The translations under genes and the position numbers were made by a program. The notes below the pieces were generated by a model. The model was not told where the DNA came from. It saw nothing but the letters and a program-made list of their open reading frames with translations, and searched no databases. Below are positions 62,619 to 63,705 of a DNA stretch of 64,000 nt, in pieces. The stretch's first letter is position 1, and each line of letters begins with the position of its first letter. This DNA is from Bacteroidales bacterium (GTDB lineage: Bacteria; Bacteroidota; Bacteroidia; Bacteroidales; VadinHA17). The DNA lies in NCBI GenBank assembly GCA_003142255.1, contig PLLO01000018.1, forward strand, positions 1 to 64,000, read 5' to 3'.

Positions 62619-63056
62619 ATGAAAACATTTTATTCTTTTATAAAGGTTTCATTTGTTATTATCTTTGCTACTCTTCTAGTATCCTGCAATCATAAACCCG
62701 ATTACAGATTATTCATGATCCAAGTGGACAGTATTCAGGTCCCTAACACATTGACTGCAAATTCCCCATTTGATATTAATTTCTTTGGAACAATTGCAGG
62801 AGATGGTTGCCATTCCTTTTCAAATTTCAACGTCCAACTTGACAATAACAATTTACTAATTGAAGCTTGGGGCAAGGTAGATGCAAAAGCTATAGTATGT
62901 CCAACAGTAATGGTTTACTTAACTGGACATAAGGTGACTTACACAATTCAAACTTCTGGAATTTATAACATCAAAATAAAACAACCTGACAACCCCTACC
63001 TTGAAAAACAAATAACAATAAATTAAACACCAGCCCATAACATATACCGCCACCCG
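62581..63056 (+). mobile_element. Integron-cassette-like unit 1
   Basis: The unit begins TTATGG directly after a G (62580). Downstream, nine bases after the gene's stop codon, CCATAAC (63035-63041) is the exact complement of GTTATGG (62580-62586). In an integron cassette these two would be the paired R boxes after excision. The unit ends at the G of CCCGTTGTG (63056). The expected hairpin between the boxes is short (only 14 bases), so this site may be truncated. It contains one small lipoprotein gene. Confidence 0.45.
62619..63026 (+). CDS. Small lipoprotein of unknown function, in cassette-like unit 1
   Basis: I start at the ATG at 62619, which gives a lipoprotein signal (MKTFYSFIKVSFVIIFATLL then VSCNHK, Cys at about 23). 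The frame extends to an earlier ATG at 62583, which would add 12 basic residues and spoil the signal. The mature part of about 113 residues is beta-rich (LFMIQVDSIQVPNTLTANSP, FDINFFGTIAGDGCHSFSNF, TYTIQTSGIYNIKIKQPDNP) with two Cys (DGC, IVCP) that could form a disulfide. The ending resembles an Ig-like beta-sandwich fold. I recognise no family. Its stop codon lies nine bases before the CCATAAC box, a spacing typical of cassette genes. Confidence 0.72.
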   Translation: MKTFYSFIKVSFVIIFATLLVSCNHKPDYRLFMIQVDSIQVPNTLTANSPFDINFFGTIAGDGCHSFSNFNVQLDNNNLLIEAWGKVDAKAIVCPTVMVYLTGHKVTYTIQTSGIYNIKIKQPDNPYLEKQITIN

Positions 63057-63073
63057 TTGTGTGCCATTAGCCA

Positions 63074-63130
63074 ATGGAAAAGCGTATGATAGTCAATTGG
63101 GTTGATTTAAAAGATAAATTTAATAACTAA
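63074..63130 (+). CDS. Possible 18-residue leader peptide
   Basis: ATG at 63074 opens MEKRMIVNWVDLKDKFNN and stops at 63130, five bases ahead of the lipoprotein gene's ATG. It lies entirely in the unit's 5' leader. It may be translated for coupling or may be chance; there is no homologue I know. Confidence 0.25.
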   Translation: MEKRMIVNWVDLKDKFNN

Positions 63131-63135
63131 TCGAA

Positions 63136-63570
63136 ATGAAAAGAATAATTTTTTCCCTGCTATTTTTTTTATTTTTAATCTCATGCAAAAAAAATAAAGA
63201 AGACATAAACATGTCTCTATTACATTTATATTATTATATAGATTTTCAAGTGAACGAGGATATAAATATAAAAAATAATGATACTGTAAGATTATCATTC
63301 GAAAATAATGATACTTTAAAAATATTATATTTTCAGTATGGTGTTGGACAAGTATTAAATAAACTTGATACAGGATATTTAGCATATTCTACAGAAGATA
63401 ATAAGATATTTTTTGGTTGGTTCTTGGATAAATTAGATGGAGTAAATTATGGACTTGCATCAGGCACTTGGGATATTCAAGTCTTAAATCCTGACACGTT
63501 GATTGTTACTCGTGTTTCAAATAATGGCGATATAACAGGACACTTTGGTTATTCAACGATAAAAAAATAA
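63136..63570 (+). CDS. Small lipoprotein of unknown function, in cassette-like unit 2
   Basis: The 144-residue protein has a lipoprotein signal (MKRIIFSLLFFLFLISCKKN, Cys 17). The mature part is AT-rich in coding, low in Gly and Pro at the start (LLHLYYYIDFQVNEDINIKN) and then beta-rich (DTLKILYFQYGVGQVLNKLD, FFGWFLDKLDGVNYGLASGT). DIQVLNPDTLIVTRVSNNGD and the ending HFGYSTIKK look like a small beta-barrel or lipocalin-like fold, which is a guess. I recognise no family. Its TAA stop is directly followed by the GGCACACAAC box of the attC-like site. The cassette form suggests it is dispensable and mobile. Confidence 0.72.
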   Translation: MKRIIFSLLFFLFLISCKKNKEDINMSLLHLYYYIDFQVNEDINIKNNDTVRLSFENNDTLKILYFQYGVGQVLNKLDTGYLAYSTEDNKIFFGWFLDKLDGVNYGLASGTWDIQVLNPDTLIVTRVSNNGDITGHFGYSTIKK

Positions 63571-63571
63571 C

Positions 63572-63705
63572 GGCACACAACAAAGTGTATAAGCCATAAG
63601 GGTGGCAGTGGTTTGCGTAGGTTTTCCTTCGCATCAGTGTTTCGTCTCAGTTGATAGGAAAGTAACTCCGAAATCCCTTACGGCTCATACACTCAACCGT
63701 TAGGC
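63572..63705. other. attC-like recombination site
   Basis: From left to right: box GGCACACAAC (63572-63581, a near fit to RYYYAAC), then arm AGTGTATAAGCCATAAGGG (63584-63602), a 72-base central part, the matching arm CCCTTACGGCTCATACACT (63675-63693) and GTTAGGC (63699-63705), an exact GTTRRRY. The two arms pair at 17 of 19 positions. The length of 134 bp is within the attC range (about 57-141 bp). The central part contains a further small hairpin (TGCGTAGG / CCTTCGCA). Confidence 0.6.

Follow-up and report, generated by a model that had tools for sequence, protein, structure and literature searches.

In the integrons described so far, such as class 1 integrons, the Vibrio superintegron or the integron of Salinibacter ruber M1, the cassettes carry attC hairpins with R'' and R' boxes, are joined at a junction between G and TT (G^TT), and stand in tandem on one strand behind an attI site located beside the integrase gene; many further stretches are CALINs, with at least two attC sites and no neighbouring integrase. 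The integrase, IntI, is distinguished by an additional domain of ~30 aa within its catalytic domain (PMC7784347). A subgroup of simple tyrosine recombinases has been called "integron-like", and the catalytic insertion is incompletely conserved in it, yet has been considered essential for integron function (PMC8138268). Bacteroidota are counted among the integron phyla in a review (PMC8618304), and in Bacteroidetes a single complete integron, that of Salinibacter ruber M1, is named by the IntegronFinder 2.0 survey (PMC9024848). Another related arrangement is rAID (recombinase-associated acquired interbacterial defence), in which a predicted tyrosine recombinase is accompanied by co-oriented short genes and conserved intergenic motifs; the term integron is absent from the 2025 preprint on it, which presents the mechanism of rAID biogenesis as an area of active research (PMC12247911).

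The locus analysed here lies at the end of a stretch of 64,000 nucleotides of Bacteroidales DNA (the window, part of contig C3 in our numbering), and the features of IntI integrons listed above, including the abundance of CALINs but not the additional IntI domain, are shared by the system to which it belongs. On comparative evidence, and with no recombination observed, a lipoprotein gene unit in it is very probably an integron cassette moved by a recombinase that is not IntI and lacks the insertion. The features of the locus, together with two plasmid arrays discussed below, are collected in Table 1.

Table 1. Features of the cassette locus in the window and of the related plasmid arrays.
Feature	Position	Strand	Remarks
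attI-like region, array start	62428-62579	+	junction G62580^TT; 89% identity with C18:1338-1494 (-) across 157 bp
Cassette 1, lipoprotein, collapsed attC	62581-63056	+	first bases behind the attI-like region: TTATGGTCA
Lipoprotein gene of cassette 1 (MKTFYSF..LVSCNHK)	62619-63026	+	ORF with lipoprotein-type signal
Cassette 2	63057-63699	+	G^TT at both 63056/63057 and 63699/63700; R' start complementary to own R'' over 10 nt
Lipoprotein gene of cassette 2, 144 aa	63136-63570	+	ORF
R'' box of cassette 2 attC, GGCACACAAC	63572-63581	+	exact complement of 63056-63065
Left arm of cassette 2 attC	63584-63602	+	pairs with 63675-63693; covaries in 12 homologues
Right arm of cassette 2 attC	63675-63693	+	arm pairing, covariation
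R' box GTTAGGC; cassette 3 begins at 63700	63699-63705	+	CAACCGTTAGGC
Cassette 3 start	63700-64000	+	array runs past the window to ~C3:67.5 kb
rAID-type immunity array, B. ovatus plasmid NZ_CP081918.1 (L336)	11944-20660		cassette rule with ATTA junctions
rAID-type immunity array, P. distasonis plasmid NZ_OY725747.1 (L337)	11932-18660		cassette rule with ATTA junctions

The original prediction had taken 63056-63705 as an integron-like cassette, and the features it described were found where it had placed them. The unit starts with GTTGTGTGCC, whose exact complement follows directly 3' of the stop codon (63568-63570) as the R'' box, the arms of the attC-like hairpin (63572-63705) pair at 17 of 19 positions, and the hairpin ends in the GTTAGGC box. 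Only the limits of the unit had to be changed, because a cassette in integron terms runs from T63057 to G63699. The folding of the bottom strand as DNA, which had been suggested as a check, gave z = -3.65, a value equalled by 1 of 200 shuffles, and the covariance model described below matches 63579-63703 with 130 bits; the Rfam scan of the window gave no match. Ten control stretches of 5.4 kb yielded a single exact 10-mer pair of this type (GTT start, spacing of 150-2500 bp), and two are present in the 5.4 kb around cassette 2. A chance origin is excluded mainly by recurrence, as covarying homologous sites are found beside different genes and the complement rule is obeyed in dozens of cassettes. 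Those of the suggested checks that could be carried out favoured the cassette reading: there are more cassette boundaries downstream, junctions centred on G^TT, the same arms around different genes in relatives, and two paralogous attI-like sites that cease to be alike at GTTAT. This confirms 63057-63699 as an integron-type gene cassette with its own attC-like hairpin.

Homologous sites were detected in 10 of the 41 genomes searched (own genome included), with 69-89% identity in the other genomes, where they are flanked by different sequence. Twelve aligned sites keep a stem of 16 pairs with 25 two-sided compensatory cells, compared with 6.8 expected and a frequency of 0 in 500 shuffles, and only 2 cells with one-sided changes; when the structure is slid along the alignment, the paired fraction drops from 93% to 25-50%. 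Such Watson-Crick-only covariation is expected for DNA pairing and differs from an RNA stem rich in G-U. With a covariance model of these sites (R1), matches were obtained for 114 of the 198 genomes in the order (E <= 1e-3) and for about a third of the sampled Bacteroidota genomes (107 of 296; E <= 1e-6); the counts per genome are minima, to be read as at least, and outside Bacteroidota the specificity rests on the model E-values and the cassette rule. The genus of the source genome also has a second attC type, of the pattern ACACGGACAATAAAGG..TTTATTGCCGGGCC|GTTA. Copies of this species-type attC number 22 in the source genome, 56 in one relative (G001) and 34 in another (G003), and a reversed-pattern control gave 0 in these three genomes. 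The G001 and G003 assemblies consist of many small contigs and, since many contig ends lie close to attC sites, probably hide arrays of superintegron size.

The sites form tandem arrays within which they share one strand and are mostly spaced by 0.6-1.5 kb; the largest array has 17 sites in 20 kb (L083, genome G088). With insertion at G^TT, the first bases of a cassette should match the complement of its own R'' and not that of the preceding site. This rule was followed in 39 neighbouring site pairs with 5.77 of 7 positions matching, against 2.75 in shuffled pairs (sd 0.21, maximum 3.49, 2000 shuffles) and 2.54 of 7 when the comparison was made within one site. The match between start and R'' usually covers 10 nt and continues, past a conserved A/G difference, with more A/T matches, so that it differs from IntI integrons in its length. 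The second attC type of the genus obeys the rule too, with 30 of 46 cases at 9 of 10 positions or more, compared with 6 of 46. The system thus has the hairpin with R'' and R' boxes, the tandem cassettes of one orientation and the complementary ends of each cassette at G^TT that define integrons, although recombination at G^TT is judged from the sequence pattern only and the reaction has not been observed.

In the window, the attI-like region ends in gacatataaacta immediately before GTT and resembles the attI sites downstream of the integrases of relatives. Its identity to the C18 copy stops at GTTAT, the sequences beyond being different, and the two are read as occupied copies of one attachment site. 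A search of the genus with this region gave a long close match only at C18, in its own genome, the others being mostly short pieces. Cassette 1 has an R'' (AGCCCATAAC, 63032-63041) that matches the complement of the cassette start at 8 of 10 positions, and only the right arm of its attC remains (ATATACCGCCACCC, 63042-63055), loop and left arm being deleted. Beyond the window, junctions were found at C3:66320 and C3:67189 and attC-like sites or halves at C3 ~64790, ~66213, ~66953 and ~67469, so that the stretch to ~67.5 kb holds three attC types, some of them halved. No integrase gene was found beside the attI-like region or in the window stretch, and C3:62.5-67.5 kb meets the definition of a CALIN; it differs from one in having an attI-like start and a likely cognate integrase identifiable elsewhere in the source genome. 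The stretch is, as we interpret its sequence, a detached CALIN-type piece with an attI-like start, and as many of its sites are halved or collapsed it may be inactive. Upstream, the attI-like site is adjoined by a short ORF (62042-62294), which we take to resemble a truncated RadC/JAB-domain protein. In the dxs-tRNA-Leu neighbourhood of 29 relatives there was no attC near dxs, and synteny was too poor for a test of empty sites.

The statement of the original prediction that the window has no integrase holds for the window stretch itself, but a tyrosine recombinase of 345-700 aa heads the arrays of relatives on the same strand, and the source genome encodes one of 516 aa on another contig (C2:2692-4242) with attI at ~C2:1957. 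The order in C2:1-4242 is integrase, lipoprotein gene, attI, two cassettes and contig end, and the start of this contig holds the complete integron of the source genome. A recombinase with attI at the head of the array is thus present in relatives and in C2, and absent from the window stretch. The 17-cassette array of G088 is likewise headed by a tyrosine recombinase and an attI-like junction. A frameshift near 3780 interrupts the integrase gene there (L083 2823-4446); it could be programmed, an error or decay. R1 sites lie 3' of the recombinase and on its strand in 48 of 49 cases (40 array heads) and in 34 of 34 (80 loci from named genomes). Within 300 bp of the integrase stop, 15 of 21 heads have a G^TT junction that matches the R'' of the first attC (shuffled 1.2, maximum 4), the typical attI junction being TATAAACGA followed by GTT. 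A search for the attI junction without the covariance model found it at 30 of 51 named loci and at 10 of 50 upstream controls; the loci with the junction include isolates of Arundinibacter roseus, Aquiflexum sp., Winogradskyella ursingii, Algoriphagus ornithinivorans, Rufibacter sp. and Zunongwangia mangrovi. Many contigs stop just behind the integrase, as expected for repeat arrays.

Strong relatives of the integrase are present in 69 of the 198 genomes of the order, and 60 of these also have R1 sites (odds ratio 9.3, p = 3e-10, uncorrected for phylogeny), the other 9 having an integrase without R1-type sites. The 54 of 114 site-bearing genomes without a strong integrase match may represent CALINs, assembly gaps or more divergent integrases. 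On a plasmid of Chryseobacterium sp. SNU WT5 (L335, 18756-20072), one of the genes that follow an integrase of the family encodes a group II intron maturase; group IIC introns target the attC sites of classical integrons. In a Spirochaetota MAG (L226 10001-11023) a relative of the integrase is followed 100 bp downstream by an attI-like junction, and the system may extend beyond Bacteroidota, unless this is a binning error.

The original prediction had advised a search for a tyrosine recombinase with the integron-specific insert; a recombinase was found, but alignments and the spacing of catalytic residues show no ~30-aa insertion in the array-head integrases, which consequently are not classical IntI. 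The distance from the catalytic R to the Y is 124-129 aa in them, against 167 in a local IntI. The integrase of the source genome scores 185 bits against NCBIfam TIGR02249, below the cut-off of 265 bits, and no classical IntI above this cut-off is encoded in that genome. In a tree of 121 sequences, the family and IntI separate together from three Xer-type recombinases of the source genome; IntI forms one tight clade whose place within or beside the family is unsure, and the array heads are scattered over the family. The "integron-like" recombinases are probably the lineage to which these enzymes belong and, against the view of the insertion as essential (PMC8138268), insert-less members head complete integrons here. 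Two further differences from IntI integrons are that the integrase is transcribed towards the cassettes and that it usually carries N-terminal modules.

One to three such modules are present in 33 of 36 array heads and in no Xer or IntI. The AlphaFold2 model shows, with high confidence, three modules of beta-beta-alpha-beta-beta-alpha topology. Foldseek related the module to the HARP domain of SMARCAL1 (4o66; probability 0.92, E 0.14, TM 0.58 on the target) and, at a probability of 0.99 in one chain, to the XPB damage-recognition region (5tnu), both weak matches, with E values of 0.05-0.17 against these folds. The best PDB sequence match of the module profile, also weak, is again 4o66 (E 0.11), a Pfam search gave no match for the module, and the model of the full integrase retrieved only recombinases, with 2a3v (IntI4) as the best. 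What the modules have in common with these two domains is the predicted fold and a tryptophan-rich motif; on the models they weakly resemble the HARP domain, and that they read the attC hairpin is our inference. We have not found a description of a HARP-like domain in tyrosine recombinases in the open-licence literature.

Classical IntI has to be considered as well, since the cassettes could be genuine integron cassettes that it moves, with the array-adjacent recombinase as a bystander. Capture in trans is assumed for integron cassettes (PMC9668308), and IntI with the insertion and above the NCBIfam cut-off does occur in 3 of the 198 genomes (L096 8267-9175, L095 and L097, in G031, G211 and G107), all three with R1 sites. 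These genes are distinct from the array-head integrases and no R1 site lies beside any of them, while in dozens of arrays the attI junction is immediately preceded by an insert-less recombinase, and IntI is present in 1.5% of genomes against sites in 58%. We consider this explanation very unlikely, although, given those three genomes, action of IntI in trans cannot be excluded for some arrays. Even less credit goes to the idea that the arrays are dead throughout, relics of a former integron kept as repeats, to which the truncated sites of the window region (63042-63056, C3:64790 and C3:67469) and the frameshifted G088 integrase would lend themselves; in most integrases both the reading frame and the catalytic residues are intact, and neighbouring genomes differ in gene content yet keep near-perfect R'/R'' complements, which would decay once recombination had ceased.

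A reading of the hairpins as intrinsic terminators, as RNA elements or as non-autonomous palindromic repeats of the REP or MITE kind, located after genes by chance, is already contradicted and retains the least plausibility of all. Inverted repeats directly 3' of stop codons and numerous species-type copies could suggest it, but the absence of an Rfam match and the Watson-Crick-only covariation of the stem do not fit, and the complementarity between the end and the start of successive units, like the attI junction, would be meaningless for terminators or MITEs.

For a cassette system with an insert-less recombinase, the following mechanism can be proposed. The tyrosine recombinase, whose gene is observed but whose role is inferred, belongs to an XerD/IntI-like family and would use as its substrate the attC hairpin folded from the bottom strand, which its N-terminal modules, of predicted HARP-like fold, may read. 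Strands would be exchanged between G and TT, and the cassette circle would go in at attI or behind another attC. Each inserted cassette would then have the TT-half of its own attC at the start and the matching R'' at the end, the pattern that is observed. The use of the bottom strand known from integrons has a parallel here, which is no proof: two conserved A.C mismatches of the stem (of 56 sites, 49 and 52 have the A and 43 and 51 the C) become G.T in the bottom strand, and for this reason its predicted stability exceeds that of the top strand in 47 of 54 sites with a difference (p = 4e-7). Single-strand recombination, like activity at the present day, remains an inference. In the source genome, the integron at the start of C2 is the complete one (integrase, attI and cassettes), and the window holds a detached stretch with several attC types.

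The gut rAID clusters of T6SS immunity genes also appear to be integrons of this type, as the cassette rule holds in them too. A related recombinase, followed by immunity genes with SMI1/KNR4 and Tdi1-type immunity domains among their products, is encoded on plasmids of Bacteroides ovatus and Parabacteroides distasonis. These plasmid arrays fit the published description of rAID (PMC12247911), and the rule is observed in them at 7.7 of 10 positions against 5.3 in shuffled ones (sd 0.30, maximum 6.4), with ATTA replacing GTTA. Shared with the present system are the conserved intergenic motifs and a related tyrosine recombinase that precedes short genes of one orientation; the rAID sites differ in their length of ~45-70 nt, in having CATTA and not CGTTA, and in their cargo of T6SS immunity genes. 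In the window the cargo is lipoproteins, for which there are no immunity data. No N-terminal module detectable with the profile was found in the rAID recombinases. To the best of our knowledge, limited to the open-licence literature, the present system has not been described before, and a report elsewhere is possible.

Taken further, and with only moderate confidence, we favour the view that the Bacteroidota have a second, phylum-wide kind of integron, including gut rAID, in which HARP-like modules would replace the IntI insertion in the recognition of the hairpin and single-strand cassette recombination would take place without this insertion. Integron surveys look for IntI with the insertion and for attC sites by a general attC model; the attC-like sites described here occur in 107 of 296 Bacteroidota genomes, cultured and plasmid-borne examples included. 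Should the inferred role of the recombinase be correct, the insertion regarded as essential for the recombination of hairpins would be dispensable, and the build-up of rAID immunity arrays, left open in PMC12247911, would become directly testable.
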